Assembly (NCBI GenBank): GCA_013141415.1
Contig: JABFQY010000001.1
Location: forward strand, 124,001 to 188,000
Reading direction: 5' to 3'
DNA from: Kiritimatiellaceae bacterium
Lineage (GTDB): Bacteria; Verrucomicrobiota; Kiritimatiellia; Kiritimatiellales; Tichowtungiaceae
Length of the DNA stretch: 64,000 nt
Below are positions 21,985 through 42,262 of the stretch, piece after piece. The notes under the pieces were generated by a model. It saw only the letters and a list, made by a program, of their open reading frames with translations, did not search any database and was not told where the DNA came from. The translations under genes and the position numbers were made by a program. How positions within the stretch are numbered: the first letter of the stretch is position 1; each line of letters opens with the position of its first letter.

Positions 21985-23691
21985 TTATTCAAATGAACGT
22001 TTCTTGGTTTCATCGTCAGGCTGCGTCGGCGGACCTTTTCTGAAAAATCCTGACCTTCCGGAGTTGCCGACCACTGGCGACGCCGGAATCTGGACTCGTT
22101 CCGGGCGGACACTCCGGGTTTCGTGAACCGGGCTGGGTACAGAAATCTGCTGTGATACCGGTGCAGCAACCGGGCTTTCGCTCCTTTCAGGCGAGTGGAC
22201 GGCCTGCCTGTGTTCGGTCGACGGCAGAGTTGCGGGTTTGCGTGTTTCGATTGGCTGGACGGGTTTTTTTCGTTCGGACGGTTGCGTCAAGGTCGGTTTA
22301 TGTTCCTCGATCGGCTGGACGGTCTGCCTGTGTTCGGTCGACGGCAGAGTTGCGGGTTTGCGTGTTTCGATCGGCTGGACGGTTTTCTTTCGTTCGGACG
22401 GTTGCGTCAAGGTCGGTTTTTGTTCCTCGATCGGCTGGACGTTTTTGCGGTCTGGCACCGAGGACTCCCAATTGCGCCGCTCGTTGCTGAACGTGTGTAC
22501 TTCGGTCGCTTGTTTGGACATCTTCTGCCGTGTGCCGGGGTCGGTCCGTTCGAGCTTCATCGAGGTTTTCTGGCTGGTGACGACCGATTCCATAGGCCGG
22601 ACCAGCTGTGAAGTGTGGCGCTGCGGTTCGGGCAGTCTGGCCGTCCGGGATTCCTGTTCGCGGAACGTGTGTGCCGGACGAAGATCCTTATCGTCATGGC
22701 GGCGGCGGTACTCATCCCGCGTGTGTTCTTCCCAGCGTGGTTCGGCCCGGTTTCTCCAGCGGGCATGCTCGTAGATCGGATCGTACCAAGTGTGGTGCCG
22801 GTGGCTTTCAAACCAAGGGAAAATTCCAATGCGCAGGTAGGTACCATCGTAGTAATCACCGAAGTAGTAGTGGCTGTAGCGAGGATAGGCAAACAGACTG
22901 ACCTGTAACAGGCCCATGTCGATGACGATACCGGGAGTGAATGTGAAGCCGACCCGACCATAAACCGAAGCCGGGAAATAAACGGGTGCAAACAGCACGC
23001 CGCGGCGCTCCAGTGAATAATCCCAGTGTCCTTCGGCAAAGATGTAGCCGCGCGGTGTCGTAACATAGTGCGCCGGAACCCAAACCCAGTTCGGCTGCGC
23101 TTTTAACCAGTATCCAGCCCGCCGGATATAGTGTTCCTCGGACCAGTACATACACGGAGGTACCCAGATCATATCCGAAGATATCTGGACGCTGACCGGC
23201 TCAAGATCTTCAATCACCGGTGGCGGCGGCAGATACGCGATGTTCCGAACGCCGGCAGGCGCCCAGAATCCGGCAACCCATTCCCAGCCTCCGGACACCT
23301 GAACCCAGTATCCAGGCGTCCAGGACATGTTCGGCGGAGCCGCCCGCCAGCAAGCGCTGACCCAGATGTAGCCGAGCCGATCGGCATCCCACGCCCAGTA
23401 TCCTGGAATCCAGACAAACTGCTGGCCCTGCGGCTTCTCTGCCGACGGGATTTCTTCAATGTTGGGCGGAGGTTGCTGCGGAACGACCAGTCCGGCTTGA
23501 ATTTGCATGGTAACGGGTTCGGCAAAAGCTTCGTGTATTGGGCCGCGGCCCAGAACTTCGGGTTGCTCCTGAGCGGGGGTTGCCGGGGGAGTCGTGTCGG
23601 TATCCTGTGCGAACAGCTGGTGGCTGCACAGCGATGTCGCGGTGAGAAGAGCAAGAGTCCATGTTGAAGAACGAGAACGGTATTGACGCAT
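21985..23691 (-). CDS. Secreted YXWGXW-type repeat protein with Pro-rich tandem tail
   Basis: 568 residues; signal peptide ending near LCSHQLFAQ. The middle (about 95-250) has repeats such as VWIPGYWAW, SWTPGYWVQV and WVAGFWAP, the aromatic YXWGXW motif of secreted structural proteins. The C-terminal third is Arg/Glu/Pro-rich and contains two near-identical 40-residue units (VQPIEE.KPTLTQPSERKK then VQPIETRKPATLPSTEHRQ). ATG at 23691 has GGGAG 8 bases before it. Probably an envelope-associated structural protein; no enzyme motif is seen. Confidence 0.78.
   Translation of the reverse strand: MRQYRSRSSTWTLALLTATSLCSHQLFAQDTDTTPPATPAQEQPEVLGRGPIHEAFAEPVTMQIQAGLVVPQQPPPNIEEIPSAEKPQGQQFVWIPGYWAWDADRLGYIWVSACWRAAPPNMSWTPGYWVQVSGGWEWVAGFWAPAGVRNIAYLPPPPVIEDLEPVSVQISSDMIWVPPCMYWSEEHYIRRAGYWLKAQPNWVWVPAHYVTTPRGYIFAEGHWDYSLERRGVLFAPVYFPASVYGRVGFTFTPGIVIDMGLLQVSLFAYPRYSHYYFGDYYDGTYLRIGIFPWFESHRHHTWYDPIYEHARWRNRAEPRWEEHTRDEYRRRHDDKDLRPAHTFREQESRTARLPEPQRHTSQLVRPMESVVTSQKTSMKLERTDPGTRQKMSKQATEVHTFSNERRNWESSVPDRKNVQPIEEQKPTLTQPSERKKTVQPIETRKPATLPSTEHRQTVQPIEEHKPTLTQPSERKKPVQPIETRKPATLPSTEHRQAVHSPERSESPVAAPVSQQISVPSPVHETRSVRPERVQIPASPVVGNSGRSGFFRKGPPTQPDDETKKRSFE
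22200..22439. repeat. Two 120-bp tandem repeats in the YXWGXW protein gene
   Basis: Units 22200-22319 and 22320-22439 differ at only a few positions and encode two 40-residue copies in frame. Recent duplication or ongoing copy-number change is likely. Confidence 0.9.
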
Positions 23692-38663: not shown

Positions 38664-39692
38664 TTATTGAGCTCCGGAGCGGCTGGGACTTCCCCCTTGC
38701 GAACGCGTCGGCGGTGAGCCGCCGCCTTGCGGGCGGGAGCCGGTTGATGATCCGCCGGGCATGAACGGGTTGGCCCCACTCCCTTTTTTGCGAACGACTT
38801 GCGGAATCAGAACTTCCTCGCCAGCCGCAAGGCCTTTGGTGATTTCGGTGAAAGCGTTTTGACTGAGGCCGGTTTTAACCGGACGAGACTCCGGCTCTTT
38901 GCCGTCTTTGGCGGGCAGGCGAACAAACGATTTTCCTTTTCGGTATTCAAGCGCGGCGGTCGGAACCGCCGGGACATCTTTATGTTCTTCCACCAGGAAA
39001 GTCAGCGTGGCGGTCATCCCGCTGCGGGCGAAGGCCGGCAGATTTTCCGGAGAGACGTCCACTTCGTACATCGTGACATTGCTGACCATTTTTGAATCGT
39101 AGGCGATGCGGCTGACGGAGCCTTCAAATGCGGCATCCGGATAGGCATCGAGCTGTACGTTCACATGCTGGCCGGGGAAAATCGCGCCAATATCGGTTTC
39201 GTCCACCTGTCCGACAATAATCAGCCGGTCGGCAATCACAATAACGGCATTAGCGGACGATACAGTTTGTCCGGGCTCCAGCGTGCGGACAATGACTGTG
39301 CCGCTGAGCGGGGCGACCAGCGGAGCGGCTTTGTAAACCTGCTCCCAGTATTTTACCTCGTCCTCGCCTTTGGCGCGGGCGGTGTCAAGCAGGGTGGCGC
39401 GCTCGGTTGAGCTGATCCATGCAACGATCTGACCTTTTTGAACCATGTCGCCTTCGTTCACGAGCAGTTCTTCGAGGCGGCCCGATATCGGTGATTTGAC
39501 TTCCAGCCGGTTGTCCGGACGGATCTCGCCAGTACTTTCAACGACGCGGCGAAGTGTTTTCAGTTCCACTTTGGCAGGCACAAATTTTTGTGCTTCAGCG
39601 GCGCTGGCGGCCTTTTTTTTGTGCGCTGTGTAAAACCAGAATCCGCCACCAGCCAGTGAGAGCACGATAAAAACAAAAATGGTTTTCTTCAT
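38664..39692 (-). CDS. macA: Efflux RND/MacA-type periplasmic adaptor
   Basis: 342 residues. N-terminal helix (IFVFIVLSLAGGGFWFY), biotinyl-lipoyl halves (VKSPISGRLEELLVNEGDMVQKGQIVAWI and APLSGTVIVRTLEPGQTVSS) and beta-barrel domain. Between the lipoyl halves only about 30 residues occur instead of the long coiled-coil hairpin, so the adaptor is short. Gly/Ser/Pro-rich C-terminal tail. Connects MacB to TolC in the envelope. Confidence 0.88.
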   Translation of the reverse strand: MKKTIFVFIVLSLAGGGFWFYTAHKKKAASAAEAQKFVPAKVELKTLRRVVESTGEIRPDNRLEVKSPISGRLEELLVNEGDMVQKGQIVAWISSTERATLLDTARAKGEDEVKYWEQVYKAAPLVAPLSGTVIVRTLEPGQTVSSANAVIVIADRLIIVGQVDETDIGAIFPGQHVNVQLDAYPDAAFEGSVSRIAYDSKMVSNVTMYEVDVSPENLPAFARSGMTATLTFLVEEHKDVPAVPTAALEYRKGKSFVRLPAKDGKEPESRPVKTGLSQNAFTEITKGLAAGEEVLIPQVVRKKGSGANPFMPGGSSTGSRPQGGGSPPTRSQGGSPSRSGAQ

Positions 39693-39708: not shown

Positions 39709-39739
39709 CAGGAGTCAGGGGTCAAGAGTCAGGAGTCAG
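39709..39739. repeat. Heptamer array, left border of the four-helix-bundle gene
   Basis: Four and a half 7-base units (CAGGAGT, CAGGGGT, CAAGAGT, CAGGAGT, CAG) in the reverse sense of the arrays at 40124 and 42097. It provides the stop codon and last codons (LTPDS) of the gene. Confidence 0.85.
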
Positions 39740-40105
39740 TAAGAATTTCTCCGGTTCCTTGATCATGGCACCAAGCATCTTTCCTATTTCATGGTTCAAC
39801 GCCGTCATGTCCGCATGTTCATCGATCGTGATATAGCCGCAATCACGGGCAAAATCCAGAGACGTGTCCGTTTCAGAATTCTCACCATCACAATCTGTAA
39901 GCTTGCTCACGAAATGTGCCGCATAGCGGCGCTTGGCCCACGCTTCTCTTAAATTCATTGGAACCGAGCGCGATGACCGGCGTCCCTGACTGATCAGCGC
40001 ATACCGCTCTTCTGCAGGAAAACGCTTGCTGACTTCAAAGAAGATCATGGCCAGCCGATAGGACTTCTTGTACACCTCCAGCTCTTTGATGTTCTGCACA
40101 GCCAT
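39722..40105 (-). CDS. Four-helix-bundle protein (S23/intervening-sequence protein family)
   Basis: 127 residues, nearly all helical. The family pattern is clear: IKELEVYKKSYRLAMIFFEVSKRFPAEERY..LISQGRRSSRSVPMNLREAWAKRRY. Family members occur in 23S rRNA intervening sequences, with the Avd subunit of diversity-generating retroelements, and in scattered repeat-bordered loci. No reverse transcriptase or rRNA is here. The gene sits inside the macA-tolC pair, bracketed by inverted CTGACYC heptamer arrays, and its final codons are made by one array. It looks like cargo of a small mobile or repeat-based unit. Confidence 0.85.
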   Translation of the reverse strand: MAVQNIKELEVYKKSYRLAMIFFEVSKRFPAEERYALISQGRRSSRSVPMNLREAWAKRRYAAHFVSKLTDCDGENSETDTSLDFARDCGYITIDEHADMTALNHEIGKMLGAMIKEPEKFLLTPDS

Positions 40106-40123
40106 GGCTTTACTTTCCAGTCT

Positions 40124-40158
40124 CTGACTCCTGACCCCTGTTACCTGATCCCTGAAAT
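40124..40158. repeat. Heptamer array, right border of the four-helix-bundle gene
   Basis: CTGACTC, CTGACCC, CTGTTAC, CTGATCC, CTGAAAT: five units, decaying toward tolC, inverted relative to 39709-39739. It also encodes the last residues (SGIR) and stop of tolC. Confidence 0.8.
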
Positions 40159-41409
40159 TCCCATCGCGTTCTGCCAGGCGGCTTCCGCCTGATCGGCCGC
40201 CCGCCGGCTCGACAGCCAGCTGCGCTGGGCCGTGATTAAAGAATTTTCAATCGTATCCCAGTCCTGAAAGCTGATCAGCCCCTGCTGGTACTGCGCTCTT
40301 GCCACCGTTGCCCGCATATCCGCCGCATCCAACTGTGCTTTCTGCACACTCAGGGCGGCGTAACGGTCGCGGTAGGTGTTGATCGCGGTCTGCAGATTAT
40401 TCAGCAGAGTCAGTATCGTATTCTCAGCATCCAGTTTTGACTGCTCGCGTTTCAGGCCGGAAATGATGATGTCCTGCGAAAGCTTTCCGCCGGTAAAGAG
40501 CGGCAGGGAAACGGCGATGCCGGTCTGCCAGCTTTTGTTTTTAATCTCCGTTTCACCGGAGCCGTTCAGGCTGGCGGAGGCCGTGACCTGCGGAAAGCGG
40601 GCGCTGCGTGTGATGATAAAGCCCTGTTCAGCGGCTTTCATGTTGGCTTCAGCTGAATGATACGACGGCGTCTGCCGCGCCAGTTCATCCAGCGACACTC
40701 CTGTCGGCGGCGGGTTTGTGCTTAACTCTCCGGCGACCGCGAAATCAGAAAACTTAGTTTGCTTCATCAGGCCTGCCAGACGGCGGCGGGCCAGTTCCAG
40801 CGCCCGCTCCGTTTCTCCGACACTGTAAAGCGCGTCCGCGAGCTGTGCCTGTTTCAGCATCAGCGAACCTTTGTTTTCGCGGCCGCCTTGATAGCGCATT
40901 TCAACCAGCCGCACACTGTCAGCGCGACGCGACGCGATATTTTTCACCAGATCGAGCAGTTCCTGTGCGTAGAGCTGATCTGAAAAAGCTTTGCGCAAGG
41001 CATACTCAACATTCGAGCGGGTTTGATCGAAGTTGGCTTTTTCGGCGTAAAGTTCCGCCTCGGTTTTAGTCACCCGGGCGCGGTTGCCGAACCCGTCAAA
41101 GATCGTATAGCTGGCGTTAAGTGAAGCCGACAGACTGTCGGTGTTGTTCCAGCCGTCGGAACTCTCCGGCTTGCTTCCGCCGACTGACCGGCCTGCTTTG
41201 GCAGTTAAGTCGGGATAATAAACCGATTGCTGCGACTTGAGCGCGGCTTCCGCCTCTTTCAGTTTTAACCGGCCGACTCCGAGATCAATATTGTTCTCCA
41301 CGGTCCGACTGAAACAGTCCTGCCAGGTCAGTGCATCATCGGCATAGAGCGCACCCGCCAGTAAAAGCAGGGCCGCTACCACAGGGAAACGATGGAACTT
41401 TGGCAACAT
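40141..41409 (-). CDS. TolC-family outer-membrane efflux protein
   Basis: 422 residues with a signal peptide (VVAALLLLAGALYADD) and two repeated halves of long amphipathic helices, the OEP family pattern. TolC forms the trans-envelope duct used with MacA-MacB, which lie on the same strand downstream. The four-helix-bundle gene and its repeats separate tolC from macA; the tolC C-terminus (GISGIR) is coded by the repeat array, so an original end may have been replaced. Confidence 0.9.
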   Translation of the reverse strand: MLPKFHRFPVVAALLLLAGALYADDALTWQDCFSRTVENNIDLGVGRLKLKEAEAALKSQQSVYYPDLTAKAGRSVGGSKPESSDGWNNTDSLSASLNASYTIFDGFGNRARVTKTEAELYAEKANFDQTRSNVEYALRKAFSDQLYAQELLDLVKNIASRRADSVRLVEMRYQGGRENKGSLMLKQAQLADALYSVGETERALELARRRLAGLMKQTKFSDFAVAGELSTNPPPTGVSLDELARQTPSYHSAEANMKAAEQGFIITRSARFPQVTASASLNGSGETEIKNKSWQTGIAVSLPLFTGGKLSQDIIISGLKREQSKLDAENTILTLLNNLQTAINTYRDRYAALSVQKAQLDAADMRATVARAQYQQGLISFQDWDTIENSLITAQRSWLSSRRAADQAEAAWQNAMGISGIR

Positions 41410-41455
41410 GGGTGCAGACTATAACGCCTGACCTTGGGGAAATACCGGAAAAATC

Positions 41456-42262
41456 TTATACTTTTTTCGGCGGGGCTTCCTTGCCGAGTTTTGTGAGGAC
41501 GGCTTTGAGGTCGGCCCACGCTTCGCCTTTTTTCCCGGGCGAGCGGAGCAGGTAGGCGGGATGGTAGGTCGGCATGAGGTCGATGCCTTCGTACCGGCAC
41601 CACGTTCCGCGGAATTTGGTGATGGCGACATCTTCCTGAAGCAGTCCCTGAACGGCGGTTTTGCCGAGCGCGACGATGATTTTTGGTTTGATGAGCGCGA
41701 TCTGCGCTTTGAGATACGGAACGCAGGCGTTCATTTCTTCCGGCAGCGGAACGCGGTTGCCGGGAGGGCGGCATTTGACGATGTTGGCGATAAAAACCTC
41801 GGAACGTTTGTAGCCCATCGCCTCAATCATTTTGTCGAGCAGCTGGCCCGCCGCGCCGACGAACGGTCGGCCTTGATCGTCTTCGTCCGCGCCGGGGCCT
41901 TCGCCGACGAACAGTATGTCGGGCCGGTTCGGGTTGCCTTCGCCGGGCACCGTATTTTTGCGCGAGGCCTGAAGCGGGCAGGCGGAGCAGACGCGGATTT
42001 GCCCGGCGATTTCGTCGAGTGTTTTTCCGGTGACGCGAAGACTGCTTTGCGGAGTTGCTGTTGCGACCGGAACGGGACGCGGCGCAGAATTCGGGACTGA
42101 CCCCTGACTCCTGTTCCCTGACTCCTGACCCCTGACCCCTGACTTCTGACTTCTGATTGCGGCCAGTGTTTCCGGCGAAACGTCCAGCGTTTGGAAGCCT
42201 TCCTCTTTTTTATATTCAAGGAAGTCCTGAAGGTTGTTCGCAAACTGTCTGATATCGGCCAT
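41456..42262 (-). CDS. Uracil-DNA glycosylase, family 4 (Fe-S)
   Basis: Removes uracil from DNA. 268 residues. [4Fe-4S] Cys pair C92-x2-C95 (CSACPL), motif GEGPGADEDDQGRPFVG and catalytic C-terminal MPTYHPAYLLR match family 4. Residues about 35-56 (the RSQKSGVRGQESG stretch) come from a CTGACYC heptamer array inserted in frame in the linker between the N-terminal helix and the catalytic domain. Only a short gap to the MenA-like gene upstream. Confidence 0.92.
   Translation of the reverse strand: MADIRQFANNLQDFLEYKKEEGFQTLDVSPETLAAIRSQKSGVRGQESGNRSQGSVPNSAPRPVPVATATPQSSLRVTGKTLDEIAGQIRVCSACPLQASRKNTVPGEGNPNRPDILFVGEGPGADEDDQGRPFVGAAGQLLDKMIEAMGYKRSEVFIANIVKCRPPGNRVPLPEEMNACVPYLKAQIALIKPKIIVALGKTAVQGLLQEDVAITKFRGTWCRYEGIDLMPTYHPAYLLRSPGKKGEAWADLKAVLTKLGKEAPPKKV
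42097..42159. repeat. In-frame CTGACYC heptamer array inside uracil-DNA glycosylase gene
   Basis: Nine 7-base units (mainly CTGACCC, CTGACTC, CTGACTT) total 63 bases, divisible by three, which keeps the gene open. Same family as the borders of the four-helix-bundle gene at 39709 and 40124. Confidence 0.92.

Follow-up and report, generated by a model that had tools for sequence, protein, structure and literature searches.

A compact S23 gene insertion with inverted heptad ends between tolC and macA, and a five-unit AG pattern that a five-fold ring may read

A 64,000-nt stretch of Kiritimatiellaceae bacterium DNA (assembly GCA_013141415.1, contig JABFQY010000001.1), here called the window and used for all positions unless stated otherwise, carries at 39710–40153 what is best read as a compact selfish insertion built around a gene for an S23 protein. 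The same kind of insertion is also found as an intervening sequence (IVS) of 23S rRNA. In the window unit both the anatomy and the insertion are directly observed, and of some 200 S23 loci surveyed most share such anatomy. S23 proteins, familiar from rRNA IVSs, are said in the available text of one paper to be of no known function (PMC4990558). By analogy with the 11-fold TRAP ring, we favour, as somewhat more likely than not, the reading that this is a selfish unit whose five-fold S23 ring wraps five AG heptads.

The unit is about 445 bp long and consists of an array, the S23 gene and a second, inverted array. The gene (39722–40105, minus strand) encodes a four-helix bundle of 127 aa. The 5′ end array (40123–40153, 31 nt, five heptads) reads on the minus strand AGGGATC AGGTAAC AGGGGTC AGGAGTC AGA, with AG in 5/5 units. 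The 3′ end array (39710–39740, 31 nt) reads on the plus strand AGGAGTC AGGGGTC AAGAGTC AGGAGTC AGT, with AG in four of the five units and AA once. Upstream lies a tolC-type outer membrane efflux gene (PF02321, 40141–41409, minus strand), whose stop codon (40141–40143) falls within the 5′ array, so that the array supplies the final tolC codons; the S23 stop codon (39722–39724) falls within the 3′ array. Downstream lies a macA/HlyD-type gene (38664–39692, minus strand), assigned, as was tolC, by Pfam and by comparison of the gap between the two. Folding of the unit RNA is predicted to bring the two arrays together in a stem (z −4.5 against shuffles), and this fold together with the array match places the open reading frame (ORF) inside an inverted-repeat stem. 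The 31-nt arrays are terminal inverted repeats, as in a miniature inverted-repeat transposable element or transposon.

An initial annotation made from the letters of this stretch had described three heptamer arrays, inverted borders that contribute the S23 stop codon and the last tolC codons, and a nine-unit array in frame in a uracil-DNA glycosylase gene. All three arrays were recovered within a few bases of where it had put them, and the borders are as it described. Doubled CTGACYC, with at most one mismatch, matched 9 times in the window, whereas shuffles averaged 0.03 and 0/100 reached 9; in the whole genome there were 46 matches against 2 for a reversed control. That the pattern is due to chance or to an assembly artefact is next to inconceivable: the window genome (G000) is a draft of 2.22 Mb in 7 contigs (95.5% complete), but the shuffles argue against such an origin, and it is already excluded because the structure is replicated, similar structure having been seen at the majority of 200 loci and also in plasmids whose records are marked complete.

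Evidence for insertion came from the tolC–macA gap in relatives, for which 10 loci were read of 18 matches. Within the window's genus the gap is empty, with the genes adjacent, in G013 (L170) and G002 (L185), and holds an S23 unit in G000 and G004 (L171); in G008 (L169) no macA follows tolC. The two genes are also adjacent in the five order-level relatives that were read (L173–L177). When empty, the gap has no array. At filled sites TolC ends in NAMGISGIR, and at empty sites in NAMGLSSIQ or NTMGLSSIQ. Empty and filled sites diverge strongly beside the arrays, which obscures target-site duplications, and none was readable. Among the 184/200 loci having both neighbours, called by ORF length, units between co-directional neighbours were in sense orientation in 126 cases and antisense in 11.

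The same ends were found on an rRNA insert. In the Azospirillum lipoferum 4B plasmid AZO_p2 (L352), the S23 gene sits in 23S rRNA (the large-subunit rRNA model covers positions 1–2142 with 1529 bits). Its 5′ end (850–880, 31 nt) reads AGAGGAC GGATGAC AGAGGAC GGAGGAC AGA and its 3′ end (1284–1314, 31 nt) reads, antisense, AGAAGAC GGATGAC AGAAGAC AGAGGAC GGA. Since this insert shares the 31-nt five-heptad ends of the window unit, rRNA IVSs and intergenic S23 units look like one kind of thing. Its automatic inverted score is low (10) because the chosen start codon falls inside the 5′ array. A further likeness is provided by the Coxiella burnetii IVS, in which three tandem GACAGAT heptamers and one GACAGAA precede the S23 ORF (PMC4990558); these also place AG every 7 nt on the sense strand, and in the available text of that paper they are treated as a strain-variable count. 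With 23S rRNA IVSs the window unit shares an S23 ORF within an inverted-repeat stem and the sense orientation. Unlike them it lies outside 23S rRNA, between tolC and macA, and is hence not an IVS; units of relatives are mostly intergenic, and gene-free arrays lie within protein genes.

L352 belongs to a group of ten plasmid loci hand-picked from 40 matching records (eight from cyanobacteria and one from Gemmatirosa besides Azospirillum). Eight of the other nine have an inverted score of at least 17. S23 units lie inside clustered regularly interspaced short palindromic repeats (CRISPR) operons on three cyanobacterial plasmids (L343, NC_019429.1; L348, NZ_CP112875.1; L349, NZ_CP016476.1), between cas6 and cas4 in Anabaena sp. 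90 and Pseudanabaena galeata, and between cas10/cmr2 and a cmr3-family gene in Picosynechococcus.

S23 genes are widespread. PF05635 (23S_rRNA_IVP) has 8 matches in the window genome, 7 of them above the curated cut-off; S23 was present in 51/58 relatives and in 220/288 sampled genomes of the phylum (199 above cut-off), against 0/14 control genomes. A first set of 115 S23 loci comprised 7 from the window genome, 29 from relatives (best match per genome) and 79 named loci. The last are 79 of the best 80 from a peptide-pattern scan of GTDB genomes, one duplicate having been removed, and that scan gave at least 581 candidates encoding a relative. By record title the named loci include Bacteroidota, Clostridia, Spirochaetes, Planctomycetes, Acidobacteria, Proteobacteria, Chloroflexi and ANME-1 archaea. 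A test set of 85 further S23 loci of the phylum was fetched after predictions had been fixed in writing; it was made up of 25 phylum-scan loci not previously viewed and 60 listing rows taken in order, skipping rows already in use and one contig-edge row (G197:C85), and 5/85 loci came from genomes also represented in the first set. Thirty ParE toxin loci from the same relatives served as control. An inverted match was defined as a score of at least 16 between the upstream flank and the reverse complement of the downstream flank, and flanks shorter than 100 nt were excluded from counts. Two loci were left out: L088, at the same contig place as L059, and L008, the weak eighth S23 match below cut-off.

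Period-7 arrays crowd these genes. Mean autocorrelation at lags 7 and 14 was raised in the 120 nt adjoining the gene (0.33–0.39 at lag 7) and near 0.25 about 600 nt away. In the 115 loci, period-7 runs per 10 kb numbered 46.3 within 50 bp, 13.3 at 50–100 bp and about 1.1 beyond 300 bp, and periods 5, 6, 8–11 and 13 gave at most 2.7. The corresponding values for period 7 in the test set were 28.2 within 100 bp and 1.2 at 300–500 bp. Inverted matches were found at 74/110 loci of the first set (direct matches at 9/110; 2.9% with swapped partners) and at 51/85 loci of the test set (direct 11/85; swapped 3.1%). Of 195 loci, 157 (27/35, 66/75 and 64/85 in the subsets) had an inverted match, a period-7 array on at least one side, or both; in far windows there were arrays in 8/125 and an inverted match in 1. 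In the ParE control inverted matches numbered 0/30, period-7 runs reached 3.3 per 10 kb within 50 bp, and AG chains had three units at most; one locus of the 30 (L219) carries a long heptad array (TGAAACT) 34 bp from the ParE gene. S23 genes elsewhere thus do have arrays, in many lineages; their lack there was what the initial annotation had named as a refutation.

The arrays do not share one fixed heptad. The initial annotation had proposed CTGACYC as the unit; as a single unit for all S23 genes this was rejected, the heptads varying by locus, and the rule that replaces it is that AG recurs at 7-nt intervals, five being the commonest count. By eye, the seven S23 loci of the window genome have differing end repeats, for example CCTAAAG (C2:156571), GGAGGAC (C1:24156) and ATTGGCG (C6:51455), and those of L003, L004 and L007 are more degenerate. 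Two S23 genes about 1.6 kb apart at G000:C1:22286–24473 also have end repeats unlike each other. Mostly, AG is found on the strand that leads into the unit: in the first set, AGG or AGT occurred in the heptad on the predicted strand in 45/61 and 53/67 arrays, and on the other strand in 8 and 10. Stop codons in three frames were not supported as a reason for period 7, as stop trinucleotides are similar on both strands (per 7 nt, 0.53 and 0.42 in 5′ arrays, 0.48 and 0.57 in 3′ arrays). Gaps judged by eye to be gltB/gltD-like or guaB/guaA-like hold S23 units with heptads that differ between species (L001, L080, L082, L083, L085; L103, L115, L116, L126, L142, L164); either the gene seems to persist in these gaps as its arrays are replaced, or the gaps seem to have been struck repeatedly.

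The number of units peaks at five. Measured by periodicity alone, array length in the first set peaked at 31 nt (19/128 arrays), or 4 × 7 + 3. The longest unbroken AG chain was exactly five in 19/113 5′ flanks of this set (four in 14, six in 10) and, antisense, in 26/112 3′ flanks (four in 10, six in 4), while chains in shuffled flanks were seldom above three. In the test set exactly five was again the commonest among chains of at least three, both upstream (16/85; four in 6, six in 4) and downstream antisense (14/85; four in 10, six in 3); chains of at least four were far fewer on the opposite strands (7/85 and 5/85). Predictions of period-7 crowding, inverted matching and a five-unit mode therefore held in the test set. 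With the pattern relaxed to [AG]G, chains of exactly five numbered 52/198 upstream (four 24, six 26) and 54/197 downstream (four 30, six 23) across all 200 loci.

The protein offers a counterpart to this number. The window S23 protein matches PF05635 at 92.8 bits (curated cut-off 33.8; E 1.9e-26), and its single-chain AlphaFold2 model has four helices at a predicted local distance difference test score (pLDDT) of 96.9. By VIA-align the model superimposes on structures 2gsc (Z 19.8, root mean square deviation 1.4 over 115 residues) and 2rld (Z 17.2), both with five chains per entry, and the Xanthomonas campestris S23 protein is described as a homopentamer (PMC4990558). We propose that the pentamer would wrap one AG strand, either RNA or single-stranded DNA, with one subunit per AG heptad, the smallest full site being (AGNNNNN)4AGN. 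Ring binding is suggested because the five-unit peak matches the five-subunit ring, and by the spacing. The analogy is with TRAP, an 11-subunit ring that binds 11 GAG/UAG triplets with 2–3-nt spacers and has been studied as (GAGUU)10GAG (PMC4854314): n subunits face n evenly spaced short triplets there, as they might face (AGNNNNN)4AGN for five in S23. The likeness is one of working principle, with no homology claimed, and S23 binding is putative. To this extent the suggestion of the initial annotation that the protein may act on the repeat or its RNA gains by analogy from the agreement in number.

The S23 fold is shared with Avd, the accessory protein of diversity-generating retroelements (DGRs), as shown by VIA-align (Z 15.0 to 8ub7_D, the Avd subunit of a DGR ribonucleoprotein, and 14.7 to 4dwl_D) and a bAvd Pfam match (E 7.6e-12); a literature search for Avd–RNA structures found nothing. 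Unlike DGRs, the window genome gave no match to the reverse transcriptase family RVT_1. Retro-mobility driven from the window genome is thus not supported, and of the two associations that had been noted for S23/Avd-type proteins, the rRNA insert is borne out by the ends of L352 and the retroelement, in this genome, is not. RVT_1 occurs in 21/58 relatives, against 51/58 for S23. A phage link also found no backing: one S23 protein (L059) gave no match in 50,697 phage records.

Within the favoured reading, the ends could instead pair in the transcript into a stem that RNase III could excise, as in rRNA IVSs, which would make insertion into an operon cheap for the host; the fold of the unit RNA, with its arrays paired, allows such a step. 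Ring binding and stem pairing would then compete for the 5′ array. A stricter version makes the arrays purely an RNA stem, kept for RNase III cutting or message protection, with an unrelated role for S23 and a heptad arising from replication slippage. The arrays are reverse-complementary in most loci, those of the window unit pair in its predicted fold, the bias to sense orientation is strong and RNase III is described as cutting rRNA IVSs (PMC4990558). However, a stem requires no period of 7, no AG in the same phase of unrelated heptads and no peak at five units. Moreover, among 16 arrays that stand without the gene, most have no good inverted partner, and five units are commonest (7/16, with a caller that required at least four AG). 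We consider this account unlikely, though the strongest of the competitors.

Another account takes the 5′ array as an autoregulatory site, where S23 would bind close to the start codon in its own leader and so block translation, as part of a host module and not a selfish one. The 5′ array ends a median of 21 nt ahead of the start codon, and rings such as TRAP act on leaders. This leaves unexplained the inverted 3′ array, the empty sites and the arrays in unrelated protein genes, and we regard it as improbable.

Arrays without the gene were located in the window genome by the CTGACYC pattern, so the sample is not blind, and chains of fewer than four AG were not called. Seventeen such solo arrays were found. 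Of 12 checked for reading frame, 10 read in frame in the sense direction, one is antisense to its ORF and one lies outside ORFs of more than 150 codons. Unit counts in 16 arrays were four (5), five (7), six (2), seven (1) and ten (1). The nine-unit array described in the glycosylase gene was confirmed: it covers 59 nt (42096–42154, AG on the minus strand), in frame, in a linker of a gene of the uracil-DNA glycosylase superfamily (PF03167, 41456–42262, minus strand). It was absent from the 12 relatives read (13 loci read of 29 matches), although in three of them this linker contains short GC-rich period-7 runs of 18–20 nt. Of eight genomes in which an aconitase-like gene was read, G006 and G011 have a short form of one loop, and the other six carry heptad arrays there, with units that differ between genomes and, in several, a sense array followed by an antisense array. 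In this gene (L330–L337) congeneric species carry differing heptad arrays in loops at alignment columns 203–232 and 438–467. Aconitase fragments of G002 and G004, a second piece of G007 and the tolC match of G009 (L183) were left out of the comparisons.

The in-frame solo arrays look like gene-free, palindromic derivatives of S23 units, and the S23 unit is likely their master copy. That they are half-units with a hidden partner was rejected: 1/17 has an inverted partner, scoring 20 (L043b), and the others score at most 14. Unit sharing between a genome's S23 gene and its solo arrays gave few cases: the ATTGGCG pattern occurs at three places (two at its own S23 gene, one elsewhere; control 0), and a foreign pattern in the same test at one place against four for the control. 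By description the in-frame arrays resemble Rickettsia palindromic elements, short palindromes that unrelated protein genes carry in frame, in families of about 150 bp with a conserved peptide (PMC10969869); some of the arrays form inverted pairs, in one genus. Unlike those elements, the inserts here are heptad arrays of changing sequence.

Heptamer repeats have been reported before: TAACTGA in Beggiatoaceae and cyanobacteria and GGGAATC in Xanthomonas and Nostoc, described in the available texts as genome-wide, with a few in ORFs, and of unknown origin (PMC4679880, PMC4692102). The arrays described here share the period of 7, the scatter over genomes and the presence of some inside ORFs. Opposite to S23 5′ arrays, the TAACTGA sets mostly have the CT strand towards start codons, and GGGAATC lacks AG. 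Neither S23 nor a four-helix protein is mentioned in the available main texts of the two papers. A general link between S23 and heptad arrays was not found in the literature as searched by title and the start of abstracts, with most subscription papers outside the search; the Coxiella paper came nearest. These reports could be taken to mean that heptamer arrays are host-wide simple repeats into which S23 inserts, the arrays seeding the insertion. Solo arrays without S23 do exist, and the published repeats of Beggiatoaceae, cyanobacteria and Xanthomonas are described without it. On the other hand, the flanking arrays are inverted and not split halves, and the empty tolC–macA gap holds no array. 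In addition, over seven relatives that lack S23 the CTGACYC pair is not in excess (8 against 6 for the reversed control), though many genomes having S23 likewise show none. We give this explanation slightly less credence still than autoregulation.

Several results weigh against a five-beat code read by a ring. At the thresholds used, 38/195 loci lack both signals, the period-7 array and the inverted match. These automatic thresholds also miss the window unit, which has an inverted score of 12 and period-7 scores of 7 and 8, since its 3′ array overlaps the end of the gene; its arrays were identified by eye, with an upstream AG chain of five. Among the plasmid loci, L348 matches only directly, with direct arrays, and L347 matches equally direct and inverted and has no AG chain. 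AGG or AGT was on the predicted strand in just 30/78 arrays of the test set, with 5 on the other. Arrays of 3, 4, 6 and up to 19–20 units also occur, and the modal length by periodicity in the test set was 30 nt (12/78), with 31 nt in 3; lengths of 29–33 nt accounted for 26/78, 22–26 nt for 13 and 36–40 nt for 3. Period-8 arrays occur as well, at up to 9.4 runs per 10 kb in the test set. The Coxiella S23 protein is reported, in the available text, as probably not made in vivo (PMC4990558). Finally, AG chains of at least four, one miss allowed, are not enriched in bulk DNA (window, 7 against 7 shuffled and 13 reversed; bulk stretches, 34 against 51 reversed). We conclude that the signal resides in position and heptad likeness, not in AG alone.

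In a minority of S23 loci, ANME-1 archaea included, period-8 AG chains replace period 7, without a favoured number of units (L063, L065, L101, L109, L273, L297, L307, L311 and L317). They were considered as a second five-unit class, which was rejected, there being no peak at five.

The small selfish unit proposed by the initial annotation is supported by its inverted ends, by congeners in which the site is empty, by an rRNA insert with such ends and by the arrays found beside S23 genes in many lineages. A wider statement, to which we would give even chances, is that the S23 units of bacteria and archaea form a single class of selfish element. Their ends would be written in a five-beat code, five AGs at 7-nt intervals, that the five-fold ring reads, with the letters between beats drifting freely and both ends together, and gene-free copies would be spread in trans, reaching operons, rRNA and protein genes. 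If five-unit arrays are binding sites of the S23 ring, both the function of S23 and the origin of heptamer repeats become testable. Bacterial heptamer repeats are reported without a mechanism in the available text of PMC4679880, and the units would be a source for at least part of their reported excess in bacterial genomes. They would also be a rare case of protein symmetry legible in the DNA around its gene.

Elsewhere in the window, a 120-bp tandem repeat at 22196–22441 is present in two copies that are 96% identical.

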